Positions 31,755 through 37,759 of a DNA stretch of 64,000 bases are shown piece after piece. Below the pieces are notes generated by a model. That model was given only the letters and a program-made list of their open reading frames with translations, was not told where the DNA came from and searched no databases. Position 1 is the stretch's first letter; the number at the start of each line of letters is the position of its first letter. The position numbers and the translations under genes are program-made. The DNA comes from Alphaproteobacteria bacterium (GTDB lineage Bacteria; Pseudomonadota; Alphaproteobacteria; Micropepsales; Micropepsaceae), in contig JAFKEW010000051.1 in assembly GCA_017308375.1 (NCBI GenBank), forward strand, positions 1 through 64,000, written 5' to 3'.

Positions 31755-32354
31755 TCAGGCGAAATCGCTGCCGAGTTCGGTGCGCACGGCCGGTGGAATG
31801 ACCGCGATATGGCCGTAATTGGCGTGGTTCACCGCCAGAAGCACGCGCCCTTCGCCGCTTTTGAATCTGGCGATCTGTTCTTGTGTGAAGCGGAAGCGCA
31901 CCCAGTGCACGGATGAGGTTTTGCCGTCCGGCGTGGTGCGATCTTCATAATCCGTGGGCGTGGCGGCGATCACGCTGCCTTCGAGATCGAGCGTGACACT
32001 CTCCTCAATGCCGGCCAGCCGCCGCAGAATGCTCTCGCGGCGAACCGGATCGTCAATCTCCAGCATCAGGGTGGCGATCAGTTCGGCGCCTTGCGGGATC
32101 AGCGGATTGTAGACCTCCAACTCGCCCTGCAATTGTTCATCGCCGCCTTTTTCGATGCGCAACATTTCCTGCACCTGCAGCCACATCGATTCGTAGTTCT
32201 CGAAATAGAAGGTGGCGTAAGGGCCCACTTCCACCCGCCGGTTCTTCTTGCGGGCGATGGAGGCGGCGCGCAATTCCTTGCGGCGAGCCAGAAAAGCATC
32301 GTTGGGAAGGATGTCGGCCGGGGTGATCCGGCGTTCGGATGCACTCATCATCAC
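31755..32354 (-). CDS. DUF3501 family protein
   Basis: A 199-residue soluble protein matching DUF3501: RRITPADILPNDAFLARRKE at the start, then RRVEVGPYATFYFENYES, EMLRIEKGGDEQLQGELEVY and NPLIPQGAELIATLMLEI. No metal motif is obvious. The function of DUF3501 is not established. Three consecutive ATGs at the 5' end overlap the stop of the Fe-S gene, so the two are translationally coupled. The gene order irr, rubrerythrin, Fe-S protein, DUF3501 suggests that it serves the rubrerythrin peroxide-reduction pathway, for instance as an assembly or electron-transfer partner. Confidence 0.9.
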   Translation of the reverse strand: MMMSASERRITPADILPNDAFLARRKELRAASIARKKNRRVEVGPYATFYFENYESMWLQVQEMLRIEKGGDEQLQGELEVYNPLIPQGAELIATLMLEIDDPVRRESILRRLAGIEESVTLDLEGSVIAATPTDYEDRTTPDGKTSSVHWVRFRFTQEQIARFKSGEGRVLLAVNHANYGHIAVIPPAVRTELGSDFA

Positions 32355-33706
32355 GCCTCCAACAGGCCATAGGCGCGCGCAAAGATCTCGATCGGATGTT
32401 CGGGCGTGCGCGCAATCTGTTTGTCTTCATCGGCCGCGAGTTTTTCGGCCTGCGCCACAATGTGCTGGGCCGCCAGCGGGCAGTCCGATGCAATGTGGCC
32501 GCGGCCCTGTTTCACCGCTGTGCGGAAGACCGGTTTGCCGACTTTCACCGCCAGTTCGTGGGTGCCTTTCAGAACGCCGAAGGTACCGCCATGGCCGGAA
32601 CAGCGTTCGATCACATCGACCGGGGTGTCCGGGATCAGGCGCAGCATCTCCGCCGCCTTGGGTCCCATGTTCTGGGCGCGGGCATGGCAGGCAAGATGCA
32701 CCGTCACACCTTCCGGCAACGCGGATAGCCCCTCGGGCAGGCCGTTTTTCTTCGCCACATCGACCACATATTCGTCGATATCGAAGGTCGCGGCCGCGAG
32801 CTTTTTCACATCCTCATTTTCGGGCAGGACCAGCGGCCATTCGAATTTCAGCATCAGGCCGCAGGATGCGGTCAGCGCCACGATGTCGTAACCGGCGTCG
32901 ATTTCGGCCACCAAGGCTTTCGCGACCTTCTTTGCCTGTTCGGCAACGCGGGCAAGATCGCCCTGCTCCAGAAACGGCATGCCGCAGCAGCCGGGGTAAC
33001 TGACTTTGGTTTCCACCCCGATGTGGTTCAGCACCGCGCGCGCGGCAAGCCCGGTTGTGGGCTTGTTGTAATTGACGAAGCAGGTGGCAAACAGCGCCGC
33101 CTTGCGGGCACCGAAGGCAGGGGCCGCTTCGTTGGGCGTTTGCGGATCGGCGCGGTCGGCGGCAACGAAGGTGCGGGTGTGGAATTTGGGCAGCGGTGCA
33201 TCGGCATCGACGCGGATGGTCGATTCCATCAACGGGCGCGTCAGCGCATTGTTGCGGGATGAGGCCCAGTTGATGACGGGGGAGGCGATGCGGGCCAGCC
33301 GCCCATTGCGATCCATTTCGGCCAGTTGCCGCGCAGTGAAATCCTTTTTGCCCTTTTTGGCTTCGGCCGCGCGATAGCGCAGCATCAGATGGGGGAAATC
33401 GAGATGGAACGGGTGCGGCGGCACATAGGGGCACTTCGTCATGAAGCACATGTCGCACAATGTGCAGGCATCGACGACGCTGGCGAAATCCTCGCTTTTG
33501 ACGCCTTCGACTTCGTTGGGGGATGCGTCCACCAGATCGAACAGGCGGGGGAAGGATTCGCACAGATTGAAACAGCGCCGACAGCCGTGACAGATGTCGA
33601 ACACACGCCGCATTTCGGCGTCGATCTTCTCGGCGTCGTAGAAATCGTCATCCCGCCAGGCGATGGGATCGCGCGTCGGGGCTTCCAGGCTGCCTTCTTT
33701 GGTCAT
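32351..33706 (-). CDS. Heterodisulfide-reductase-related Fe-S oxidoreductase
   Basis: A 451-residue soluble protein. Two 4Fe-4S motifs are near the N-terminus: Cys39-x2-Cys42-x2-Cys45-x3-Cys49 (CHGCRRCFNLC) and Cys81-x2-Cys84-x2-Cys87-x4-Cys92-Pro (CTLCDMCFMTKCP). Two CCG-type domains follow, as in GlcF/GlpC/HdrB: the first with ATCFVNYN and YPGCCGMPF, the second with LACHARAQNMG and ERCSGHGGTFG, where the CCG core has become CSG. This protein could pass electrons from a quinol or carrier to a partner. It lies between the rubrerythrin gene and DUF3501, so reduction of rubrerythrin is the natural hypothesis. Confidence 0.92.
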   Translation of the reverse strand: MTKEGSLEAPTRDPIAWRDDDFYDAEKIDAEMRRVFDICHGCRRCFNLCESFPRLFDLVDASPNEVEGVKSEDFASVVDACTLCDMCFMTKCPYVPPHPFHLDFPHLMLRYRAAEAKKGKKDFTARQLAEMDRNGRLARIASPVINWASSRNNALTRPLMESTIRVDADAPLPKFHTRTFVAADRADPQTPNEAAPAFGARKAALFATCFVNYNKPTTGLAARAVLNHIGVETKVSYPGCCGMPFLEQGDLARVAEQAKKVAKALVAEIDAGYDIVALTASCGLMLKFEWPLVLPENEDVKKLAAATFDIDEYVVDVAKKNGLPEGLSALPEGVTVHLACHARAQNMGPKAAEMLRLIPDTPVDVIERCSGHGGTFGVLKGTHELAVKVGKPVFRTAVKQGRGHIASDCPLAAQHIVAQAEKLAADEDKQIARTPEHPIEIFARAYGLLEA

Positions 33707-33734
33707 GATGATCTGCTGACTATCGGGGCCGGAT

Positions 33735-33784
33735 AAAAATGGGGGATGGACGCGGGCGGCCTGCGACAGGGCCGCCGCCCGCGT
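33735..33784 (-). terminator. Strong hairpin between rubrerythrin and the Fe-S gene
   Basis: ACGCGGGCGG (33750-33759) and CCGCCCGCGT (33775-33784) form a perfect 10-bp GC stem. On the minus strand a T5 run follows 10 nt after the stem. It probably acts as a partial terminator or 3'-end stabiliser, giving more rubrerythrin than downstream message. Confidence 0.6.
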
Positions 33785-33799
33785 TCGGTTATGCAGATA

Positions 33800-34222
33800 T
33801 CAGGCGTTGAGCGTGTCGAGGGCTTTCTGGAAACGGCCGGCGTGGCTCTTTTCTGCCTTGGCAAGGGTCTCAAACCAGTCCGCGATTTCGTCGAAGCCTT
33901 CTTCGCGGGCGGTGCGGGCCATGCCCGGATACATGTCGGTGTATTCGTGGGTTTCGCCCACAATGGCCGATTTCAGGTTCAGGTCGGTGCCGCCGATGGG
34001 CGCATCGGTTGCCGGATCGCCGACTTCTTCCATGTATTCCAGATGGCCATGGGCGTGACCGGTCTCGCCTTCCGCAGTGGAGCGGAACACGGCCGCCACG
34101 TCGTTAAAGCCTTCGACGTCGGCCTTCTGTGCGAAGTAGAGGTAACGGCGGTTGGCCTGGCTCTCGCCGGCAAACGCTGCTTTCAGATTGTCGTGGGTCT
34201 TGGTGCCTTTCAGGGTCGCCAT
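33800..34222 (-). CDS. Rubrerythrin family protein (erythrin domain only)
   Basis: A 140-residue di-iron four-helix-bundle protein. Iron ligands follow the rubrerythrin pattern: Glu20 in [12 protein letters not shown], Glu53-x2-His56, Glu90/Glu93 in AIVGETHEY and Glu124-x2-His127. The protein ends without the C-terminal rubredoxin domain (no CxxC), so it must take electrons from a separate donor. Rubrerythrins reduce hydrogen peroxide to water in the cytoplasm. It is first in a minus-strand run with the Fe-S oxidoreductase and DUF3501 and lies 150 nt from irr. Its promoter carries an Irr-type box. Confidence 0.95.
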
Positions 34223-34319
34223 GGTTTTCTCCTCGCTGTATCCCGGAAAATCCGCGCGCGGGCTGAACCGGGAAGCTCGGCCCGTCGTGACTGCACCATG
34301 GCGCGCAGACGCACGGCTG

Positions 34320-34348
34320 TCAATAGTTTGGAATTATTCTAATGAAAA
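34320..34348 (-). promoter_or_regulatory. Candidate rubrerythrin promoter
   Basis: On the minus strand, TTTTCA (34348-34343), a 17-nt spacer, and TATTGA (34325-34320). The spacer is filled by an Irr-type palindrome. An alternative pair, TTGACA (34323-34318) and CATGGT (34300-34295) at 17 nt, lies immediately downstream. Confidence 0.5.
34327..34343. promoter_or_regulatory. Irr (iron control element)-type box at the rubrerythrin promoter
   Basis: TTGGAA-TTA-TTCTAA at 34328-34342, flanked by T on both sides, is a 15-nt palindrome with one mismatch to the TTAGAA-N3-TTCTAA pattern of Irr sites as I know it from rhizobia. It lies in the spacer of the TTTTCA/TATTGA pair. Confidence 0.6.
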
Positions 34349-34389
34349 TTAATCGCAGTGCAGCCAATGGAATTAATCGCGGCGCAGCC
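34347..34389. repeat. 19-nt imperfect direct repeat at the irr 3' end
   Basis: AATTAATCGCAGTGCAGCC (34347-34365) and AATTAATCGCGGCGCAGCC (34371-34389) differ at two positions and are offset by 24 nt. The second copy covers the last codons and stop of irr. Confidence 0.8.
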
Positions 34390-34798
34390 GCACGACCACG
34401 TCCACGCGCTCGACCCGCGTGCCGGAAGGGGCATTCGGGACACCGGCCACCGCGATCTCCGCACCCGGAATGTCGATCAGGGTCCCCTCATCTTCCAGGT
34501 AGAAATGCTGGTGCTCGCCGATATTGGTGTCGAAATAGGACCGCGCCGCATCCACGGTCACCTGCCGCAGCAGGCCCGCATCGGTCAGTTGATGCAGCGT
34601 GTTGTAGATCGTTGCCAGCGATACGCGAATCCCGGCCTGTGCCGCTTCTTCATGCAGCATCTCGGCCGTCAGATGGCGGTCGCCGCCCTCAAACAGCAGG
34701 CCGGTCAGTTCGACGCGCTGCCGTGTCGGGCGCAGGCCCGCGCCGCGCAGCCGCGCGATCAGGTGGGCCTTGCCGGTGGCCTGCGAAGATTCGCCCAT
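34373..34798 (-). CDS. irr: Iron response regulator Irr (Fur superfamily)
   Basis: ATG 34798 is chosen because GGAAGGACGAAAG precedes it; 141 residues. The winged-helix DNA-binding domain has LRGAGLRPTRQRVELTGLLF and VSLATIYNTLHQLTDAGLL. The dimerisation domain has TNIGEHQHFYLEDEG with the HxH (His96, His98) metal/heme ligand pair, and ends VERVDVVVRLRRD. These features and the adjacent fabA-fabB-fabI genes are those of alphaproteobacterial Irr rather than Fur or PerR. Irr is destabilised by heme and represses or activates iron, heme and oxidative-stress genes. The N-terminal heme regulatory motif of Bradyrhizobium Irr is absent. An Irr-type box in its own promoter predicts autoregulation. 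Confidence 0.93.
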   Translation of the reverse strand: MGESSQATGKAHLIARLRGAGLRPTRQRVELTGLLFEGGDRHLTAEMLHEEAAQAGIRVSLATIYNTLHQLTDAGLLRQVTVDAARSYFDTNIGEHQHFYLEDEGTLIDIPGAEIAVAGVPNAPSGTRVERVDVVVRLRRD

Positions 34799-34858
34799 TC
34801 TTTCGTCCTTCCACCCAAAGCGGGCCTTACACGGCTGACACTCGGGCTTCACCTTTGC

Positions 34859-34885
34859 TAGGCTGATTCCGTAAGGTGCAGCCTA
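34859..34885 (-). promoter_or_regulatory. Inverted repeat in the irr leader
   Basis: TAGGCTG (34859-34865) and CAGCCTA (34879-34885) are a perfect 7-bp inverted repeat with a 13-nt centre, between the predicted irr transcription start and its RBS. It could be an mRNA hairpin or a protein site. Confidence 0.4.
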
Positions 34886-34909
34886 ACATATGCGATATCC
34901 AAGATCCCG

Positions 34910-34938
34910 TATATAGTTAGAATGCGTCTAATAAACAA
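34910..34938 (-). promoter_or_regulatory. Candidate irr promoter
   Basis: On the minus strand TTGTTT (34938-34933), a 17-nt spacer and TATATA (34915-34910). The leader to the irr ATG would be about 105 nt. The spacer is occupied by an Irr-type palindrome. Confidence 0.6.
34917..34931. promoter_or_regulatory. Irr-type box in the irr/fabA divergent region
   Basis: TTAGAA-TGC-GTCTAA, one mismatch from the perfect TTAGAA-N3-TTCTAA palindrome. It fills the irr promoter spacer and could also affect fabA on the other strand. Confidence 0.65.
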
Positions 34939-34950
34939 GAAATTGATGAA

Positions 34951-34980
34951 GGGGCGGATTTTGTCAAGTATCGCCGCCCC
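34951..34980 (+). promoter_or_regulatory. Hairpin in the fabA leader
   Basis: GGGGCGG (34951-34957) and CCGCCCC (34974-34980) form a 7-bp GC stem around a 16-nt loop, ending 13 nt before the fabA ATG and just before its GGAG. It may modulate initiation or terminate some transcripts. Confidence 0.4.
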
Positions 34981-34993
34981 GAACGGAGTGGAA

Positions 34994-35542
34994 ATGCAGT
35001 CAACCCGATCGAATTTCGACCTTCAGGGTCTGCTTGCCTGCGCGCGGGGGGAATTGTTCGGGCCCGGCAATGCGCGGCTGCCGCTGCCCCCCATGCTGAT
35101 GTTCGATCGCATCACCAATATCTCGGACAAGGGCGGTTCCGCAGGCAAGGGCGAGATCATGGCCGAACTCGATGTGAAGCCCGATCTGTGGTTCTTCAAA
35201 TGCCATTTCCAGGATGACCCGGTGATGCCGGGCTGTCTGGGGCTGGATGCGCTGTGGCAGATGGCGGGTTTTTTCCTGGGCTGGATGGGCGGCCTCGGCA
35301 AGGGCCGGGCGCTGGGCGTGGGCGAGGTGAAATTCAGCGGCATGGTGCTACCGTCGAACAAGCTCGTCTCCTACTATGTCGAATTCAAGCGCGTGATCAT
35401 GCGCCGGCTCGTGGTGGGTGTGGCGGATGGGATCGTGAAGGTTGACGGCAAACCCATATTCGAGGCCAAGGATCTCAGGGTTGGCCTGTTTACCGATGAA
35501 GCGGCCGCCAATGGCCGCCAGGTTGCCGGTGCGCCGGCCTGA
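34994..35542 (+). CDS. fabA: 3-hydroxydecanoyl-ACP dehydratase/isomerase
   Basis: ATG 34994 (GGAG upstream) gives a 182-residue hot-dog-fold enzyme. The active-site His71 in [14 protein letters not shown] and Asp85 in LGLDALWQM match E. coli FabA His70/Asp84. It dehydrates 3-hydroxydecanoyl-ACP and isomerises the trans-2 product to cis-3-decenoyl-ACP, the branch point of anaerobic-type unsaturated fatty acid synthesis. It is the first gene of fabA-fabB-fabI, divergent from irr, an order also found in rhizobia. Confidence 0.97.
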
Positions 35543-35576
35543 TCATGTTCGTTCCTGCTGCAGGGAAAGCTGACCC

Positions 35577-36800
35577 ATGAGACGCGTGGTGGTCACCGGT
35601 TTGGGCATCGTCTCGTCCATCGGCAACAATGCGCAGGAGGTGGTCGCCTCCTTGCGCGAAGCCCGTTCCGGCATCGTGCGGGCGGACGATTACGCGGCGC
35701 ATGGTTTCCGCTCGCAAGTGCATGGCAGCCTGAAAATCGACATCGATCAGGCGGTGGACCGGCGTGCGCGCCGCTTCATGGGCGATGGTGCGGCCTATGC
35801 CTGGATTGCGATGGAGCAGGCGATCCGCGATGCCGGTCTTGAAACCGGCGATATTTCAAACGAACGCACCGGATTGATCGTGGGTTCGGGCGGGCCATCC
35901 ACCCGCGCCATTGTGGCCGCTGCCGATGTTACGCGCGAGCCGGGCAAGGGCCCGAAGCGGGTGGGACCGTTCGCGGTGCCGAAGGCGATGTCCTCCACCT
36001 GCTCGGCCAATCTCTCCACCTGGTACAAGACCAAGGGCGTCAATTATTCGATCTCCAGTGCCTGCTCGACCTCGGCCAATTGCATCGGCAACGCGGCCGA
36101 GATGATCCAGTGGGGCAAGCAGGACATCATGTTCGCCGGCGGCGGCGAGGAGCTGGATTGGACGCTCTCGGTCCTGTTCGATGCGATGGGCGCAATGTCG
36201 TCGAAATTCAACGATCAGCCGGAAAAGGCCTCGCGCGCCTATGACAGGAACCGCGACGGCTTCGTGATCTCCGGCGGTGGCGGCATCCTGGTTCTCGAGG
36301 AACTGGAACACGCCAAGGCGCGCGGCGCGAAGATTTACGCCGAACTGGCGGGTTACGGCGCCACCGCCGATGGCGCCGATATGGTGGCCCCGTCCGGCGA
36401 AGGGGCGGTGCGCTGCATGCGCATGGCGATCGAAAAGGTGAAGGCACCGATCGATTACATCAACCCGCATGCCACCTCGACGCCGGTCGGCGATATTCCG
36501 GAGATCAACGCGATCCGTGAAGTGTTCGGCGAAAAGATGCCGCCGGTCAGCGCCACGAAATCGCTCACCGGTCACAGCCAGGGTGCGGCCGGTGTGCACG
36601 AGGCGATCTATACGCTTTTGATGATGCAGTCGGGCTTCATCTGCGAAAGCGCGAATATTGAGGAGATCGACCCCGCCGTGGCCGATGCCAATATCGTGCG
36701 CCGCCGCATCGACAATGCGAAGATCGAGGTCGCGCTCTCCAACAGTTTCGGGTTCGGCGGCACCAACGCATCGCTGGTGTTCCAGCGCTATGCCGCGTAA
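35577..36800 (+). CDS. fabB: 3-oxoacyl-ACP synthase I
   Basis: A 407-residue thiolase-fold condensing enzyme. The catalytic triad is Cys163 in [10 protein letters not shown], His298 in [12 protein letters not shown] and His333 in [10 protein letters not shown], exactly the E. coli FabB numbering. It elongates cis-3-decenoyl-ACP from FabA, committing carbon to unsaturated fatty acids. It begins 34 nt after fabA with AGGGAAAG as RBS, and fabI follows 74 nt later. Confidence 0.97.
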
Positions 36801-36874: not shown

Positions 36875-37759
36875 ATGGCTGAAGCCACGAATTTGATGCG
36901 CGGAAAACGCGGTCTGGTGATGGGGGTCGCCAACGACCACTCGATCGCCTGGGGTATTGCGCGCAATCTGGCGGGCGCCGGTGCCGAAGTCGCCTTCACC
37001 TATCAGGGCGAAGCGCAGGCCCGCAGGCTGAAACCGCTTGCCGCTTCCATCGGGGCGCAGATCATGCTGCCGGGCGATGTCGAGAATGATGACGAACTCG
37101 ATGCCGCGTTCGACACCTTGAAGCGCGAATGGGGCGGCCTCGATTTCCTGGTTCACGCCATTGCCCATTCCGACCGCAACGAATTGAAGGGCCGTTACGT
37201 CGATACCACGCGGGCCAATTTCAGTCGCTCGCTCAGCATTTCCTGTTACTCCTTCACCGCCGTTGCGCAACGCGCGGCGCGGCTGATGTCCACCGATCTT
37301 GGCTTCGGCGGCGGCGCGATGATCACGCTGACCTATCTTGGCGCCAGCCGCGTGATGCCGAACTACAATGTGATGGGGGTGGCCAAGGCGGCGCTGGAAG
37401 CCAGTGTGCGTTATCTCGCCGCCGATCTCGGGCATGACGGGATTCGCGTCAACGCGATTTCGGCCGGGCCGATGCGCACGCTTGCAGGCGCCGCGGTGGG
37501 CGATGCGCGCACCGTGTTCAAATGGAACCGCGCACACGCACCGCTCAAAAAGAATATCGAACTCGACCATGTCGGCGGCGCGGCGCTCTATTTGCTGAGC
37601 GATCTGTCGGGCGGTGTCACGGGCGAGATTCATTTCGTCGATGCCGGATTCAATGTGGTCGGCATGCCGCCGACAGCGGATCTGAAAGGCTGGATCGCGC
37701 CCGGAAATGGCCATGATGTCAGTGAAGACGATGGCAATCCGGCGCGCTGCGAGACGTAA
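36875..37759 (+). CDS. fabI: Enoyl-ACP reductase (NADH)
   Basis: A 294-residue SDR-type reductase. The cofactor motif is GLVMGVANDHSIAWGIA, and the catalytic pair Tyr164-x6-Lys171 lies in NYNVMGVAKAAL. It has about 20 more residues at the C-terminus than typical FabI. It reduces the trans-2-enoyl-ACP in each elongation cycle. GAGG lies upstream of the start. It ends the fabA-fabB-fabI unit, with a small VOC gene 26 nt downstream that may be cotranscribed. Confidence 0.95.
   Translation: MAEATNLMRGKRGLVMGVANDHSIAWGIARNLAGAGAEVAFTYQGEAQARRLKPLAASIGAQIMLPGDVENDDELDAAFDTLKREWGGLDFLVHAIAHSDRNELKGRYVDTTRANFSRSLSISCYSFTAVAQRAARLMSTDLGFGGGAMITLTYLGASRVMPNYNVMGVAKAALEASVRYLAADLGHDGIRVNAISAGPMRTLAGAAVGDARTVFKWNRAHAPLKKNIELDHVGGAALYLLSDLSGGVTGEIHFVDAGFNVVGMPPTADLKGWIAPGNGHDVSEDDGNPARCET

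Follow-up and report, generated by a model that had tools for sequence, protein, structure and literature searches.

Irr boxes and the irr–fabA gap

The closest described counterparts of the site analysed here are the Irr boxes (ICE) of Rhizobiales and Rhodobacter (mbfA, ccpA, isc-suf P3). They share the core TTAGAA-N3-TTCTAA, stand beside rubrerythrin/ferritin-like and peroxidase genes, and overlap or abut core promoters. For R. sphaeroides, EMSA shows binding of Irr to TTAGAAATATTCTAGA (PMC6956336), the 5' end of the mbfA mRNA lies inside the Irr box of that gene, and mbfA is more strongly expressed in an irr mutant (PMC3413700). The boxes of mbfA and ccpA are the only predicted Irr boxes that the latter study reports for that species, and the region upstream of katE is not bound by Irr (PMC3413700). 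Depending on the position of its box, Irr can also act as an activator (PMC7762939). Irr of Brucella abortus is reported to control its own expression (Martinez 2005), as we propose for the Irr studied here. The accessible passages of a B. melitensis DAP-seq study name seven bound genes, and irr is not among them (PMC10374146).

In the window (the whole 64,000-nt stretch of DNA that was analysed), irr (34373..34798, minus strand) and fabA (34994..35542, plus strand; product identified as FabA) diverge from a 195-bp gap that contains a similar box. The plus strand at 34910-34938 reads TATATA-G-TTAGAATGCGTCTAA-T-AAACAA, and the minus strand, which carries irr, reads TTGTTT-A-TTAGACGCATTCTAA-C-TATATA from 34938 to 34910, with a spacer of 17 nt. 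The letters of this palindrome-bearing pair of hexamers and its neighbours irr and fabA are as the original prediction gave them. The box itself (TTAGAATGCGTCTAA, 34917..34931), which we assign from its sequence and its conservation in the genus, is a 6-3-6 palindrome with one arm mismatch (TTAGAC/TTCTAA) and agrees with the Irr core TTAGAA-N3-TTCTAA at 11 of 12 core positions. The gene fabA is followed by fabB (35577-36800) and fabI (36875-37759). Downstream of irr lie genes for rubrerythrin (33800..34222, minus strand), a GlpC-like Fe-S protein (32351-33706) and a DUF3501 protein (31755-32354), and these three probably form one operon. The probable start of irr is the ATG at 34798 on the minus strand, preceded by GGAAGGA, rather than the GTG at 34852 that opens the longest frame.

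Conservation was assessed in 56 irr–fabA gaps sampled from the window's GTDB genus, which is Rhizomicrobium-like. The box is present in all 56 gaps and perfect (12/12 core positions) in 53, and its columns are 93–100% conserved compared with a mean of 43% in the 40-nt flanks on either side. The palindrome, which the original prediction expected relatives to keep, is thus nearly invariant in this motif scan of irr–fabA intergenic regions. We consider it probable, at about 0.78, that the palindrome acts as an operator for Irr (Irr box/ICE), through which Irr represses its own gene and a small set of genes carrying the same box. As a putative Irr operator it is very likely autoregulatory and most likely repressing; the sequence, its conservation and the set of genes are what we observe, and the binder, the repressing effect on irr and the signal are inferred. 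The core is the one known from Rhizobiales and Rhodobacter, and the box likewise accompanies rubrerythrin/ferritin-like and peroxidase genes and candidate core promoters. Unlike in those bacteria, however, boxes in this genus also stand before irr itself, katG and ahpC.

Promoter geometry and the question of fabA

Promoters were scored with a generic sigma-70 matrix, which is E. coli-like and fits alphaproteobacteria imperfectly. The pair described in the original prediction (34910..34938, minus strand; -35 TTGTTT at 34938-34933, 17-nt spacer, -10 TATATA at 34915-34910) exists and scores 5.18. It had been called a good promoter, but TTGTTT shares only 3 of 6 positions with TTGACA and the score is no better than the 5.19 of an alternative on the same strand (34939..34967), which consists of TTGACA (34967-34962), a 17-nt spacer and AATTTC (34944-34939). 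A start from this alternative would lie within the box or close to it. When its TTGACA is paired at other spacings, the score reaches up to 7.6 with the E. coli-like matrix.

Over 59 boxes, the -35 of the best-scoring pair starts at -9..0 relative to the box in 44% of cases (13% with shuffled flanks) and at -42..-34 in 15% (6% with shuffled flanks). A register like that of the original pair is found at about 20 of the 59 boxes and a TTGACA-type -35 at -36 to -32 at about 14, while in some other relatives the letters of the box themselves serve as the predicted -35 or -10. With the best pairs falling in several registers, the claim that the palindrome exactly fills the promoter spacer does not describe a conserved rule. 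The box appears to overlap or abut plausible irr core promoters in a register that is unfixed and varies among relatives. Autorepression of irr, as originally proposed, fits because candidate core promoters of irr run through the box, the direction of the effect and the start site both being predictions.

In the mechanism that we propose, an Irr dimer would bind the palindrome and block transcription of irr, as box and candidate irr core promoter share positions in every register seen. This negative autoregulation would operate while Irr is active (low iron or haem), and inactivation of Irr by haem, or perhaps by peroxide, would relieve the repression of irr. The same Irr would control the rubrerythrin operon and dps (probably also ahpC) in the genome studied here, and katG and ahpC in relatives.

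It is also conceivable, though in our view doubtful, that the box controls fabA, or irr and fabA together, so that Irr would block or road-block fabA-fabB at low iron and tie unsaturated fatty-acid synthesis to iron. The two genes occur together at every examined genus locus of fabA-linked irr. On the fabA strand, the pattern CTG(A/T)C...(G/C)CTA is found at 20 of the 56 genus loci compared with 0.8% of shuffles, and at 18 of these 20 its CTA lies 22–28 nt before the box, which would place the box just past the predicted fabA start. Visual inspection shows TGCTA by itself at many of the remaining loci. In the window, however, the candidate fabA promoter CTGACA-N18-TAGGCT (TGCTAGGCT, 34835..34864, plus strand), which is of the extended -10 type and follows the relaxed pattern of the genus, stands 60 nt away from the box when measured in the same way.

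A wider comparison with 80 named loci from other alphaproteobacteria also speaks against control of fabA. In other orders irr and fabA as a rule diverge from a gap that lacks the box, most irr–fabA gaps there having none at irr, and a one-mismatch box, TTAGA(T/C)GTTTTCTAA, precedes irr with no fabA nearby at three loci of Bosea and at one locus of a related member of Hyphomicrobiales. The boxless irr–fabA gaps elsewhere and the Bosea box without fabA favour irr over fabA as the probable target, and suggest that the irr box was gained within this lineage. The box between irr and rubrerythrin is spread more widely than the irr box, occurring in several orders and families of the class. Genes for FabA without irr have no box, a weak argument since those genomes also lack Irr. 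Four genomes without irr, considered as a control for loss of the box, are also without fabA, probably owing to an assembly gap, and therefore carry no information on this point. The original prediction had treated the site as common to irr and the divergent fabA and as a link between membrane lipids and iron status. The shared gap stands, whereas the boxless gaps, the Bosea loci and the distance in the window leave the link weak, and a coupling of lipid synthesis to iron via the box is possible.

The fabA leader contains a hairpin, GGGGCGG...CCGCCCC (34951-34957 / 34974-34980), and in many relatives another, short stem stands at about the same position, in some cases closed by a TGTCAA loop. 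An Rfam scan of 33700-35700 gave no match. An RNA element was considered but is not proposed, as the loop motif occurs in only part of the genus and TGTCAA represents the letters of an opposite-strand TTGACA -35, which in most cases is separated from a weak -10 by the same 17 nt.

Further boxes and the regulator

If no more than one mismatch is allowed, the window's genome (3.58 Mb) contains only three sites, at irr, at rubrerythrin and at a Dps/ferritin-like gene. The second Irr box, TTGGAATTATTCTAA (34328..34342), lies between irr and rubrerythrin, 4 nt ahead of a minus-strand TTGACA; 32 genus boxes were aligned at this place, and the position could fit either repression or activation. The single perfect box of the genome (L039:1501-1515) precedes the Dps/ferritin-like gene (L039:1555-2046), and a box with two mismatches (L006:1501-1515) is located 43 bp upstream of ahpC, so that the Irr box recurs before several iron-storage and peroxide genes in one genome.

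Perfect boxes are found in 57 of 61 genomes of the genus compared with 4 for a control read backwards. Among the matches listed, further boxes in relatives stand before katG or ahpC, two genomes have one before poxB, and a single box (L216) could be assigned to none of these genes. Perfect boxes stand before katG at seven loci, and boxes stand before a pyruvate dehydrogenase (PoxB-like) gene at three. At another locus katG directly follows irr, in the place of rubrerythrin. A search of the window's genome, made without a positive control, found no katG. The one arm mismatch of the window copy is a counterpoint to the operator reading, as are the irr paralogues of the genus: second irr-like genes away from fabA have no box nearby at the seven loci concerned.

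The product of the window's irr gene scores 207.8 bits against NF045678 (IrrA, cut-off 150) and 194.9 bits against NF045677 (Irr, cut-off 170). The HXH haem-binding motif, a requirement for Irr (PMC7762939), is present as EHQHF, with H114 and H116 invariant in the Irr alignment. The site bound by Irr in R. sphaeroides, the derepression of mbfA, the passing of both equivalog cut-offs and the HXH motif together make Irr the natural candidate for the binder. Inspection of the translation revealed zero cysteines in the ATG-started Irr, which lacks the N-terminal haem regulatory motif and, for want of cysteines, the CXXC motifs of a structural Zn site. The haem regulatory motif is a feature of only some Irr proteins, such as that of Bradyrhizobium, and does not define all of them.

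PerR of Firmicutes is a Fur-family regulator that is autoregulated and controls catalase, AhpC and Dps. Irr of the window shares with it the family, the proposed autoregulation and peroxide gene set, and the ligand residues. The box differs, however, Irr here has neither cysteines nor a structural Zn site, its best family match is Irr, and peroxide sensing is only putative. By alignment to Fur and by invariant columns, H60, D108, H114, H116 and D127 of Irr (GTG numbering) appear to match the regulatory ligands His37, Asp85, His91, His93 and Asp104 of PerR (PMC4866751); these residues are invariant in every Irr aligned and are not peculiar to this genus. While the type of switch is ordinary, the gene set is unexpectedly centred on peroxide. 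We speculate, tentatively and against the odds as we see them, that Irr in this lineage could have turned into an autoregulated regulator of the PerR type for the defence against peroxide (rubrerythrin, AhpC, KatG, Dps), sensing iron or haem and possibly peroxide, and that its autoregulatory box was gained within the lineage in an old irr–fabA gap, where overlapping divergent promoters would make fabA sensitive to it.

The predicted Irr operator is well conserved and directly testable, and comes with a compact predicted regulon in Rhizomicrobium-like alphaproteobacteria. If the regulon is true, Irr in these bacteria would be linked less to iron uptake than to the detoxification of peroxide and iron, and this would help to account for the overlap of Irr and PerR roles. 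Literature searches (Irr with fabA, katG/ahpC or Rhizomicrobium), whose coverage mostly stopped short of subscription papers, found no earlier description of the arrangement and no work on Irr in Rhizomicrobium-like alphaproteobacteria.

Use of the box by another Fur-family regulator (a Fur, Mur or Zur paralogue) instead of Irr is improbable. The genome encodes at least one further Fur-family protein (G000:C42), and the boxes of the family are related palindromes. The motif, however, matches the EMSA-proven R. sphaeroides Irr site but for one position, the set of targets is Irr-like (rubrerythrin, ferritin-like, peroxidases), and the box adjoins irr throughout the genus.

By chance, the 195-bp gap should hold about 0.9 bare 6-3-6 palindromes if up to one mismatch is allowed, and palindromy alone therefore carries no meaning, whereas a match to TTAGAA-N3-TTCTAA within the same tolerance turns up in 0.05% of first-order Markov shuffles of the gap (about 5e-4). 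Chance origin of the palindrome in an AT-rich gap, for which the frequency of the bare form would speak, is refuted by the near-invariance of the box in 56 relatives with diverged flanks and retains a negligible probability. Three relatives carry a tandem pair of Irr boxes, 16 bp apart, upstream of irr.
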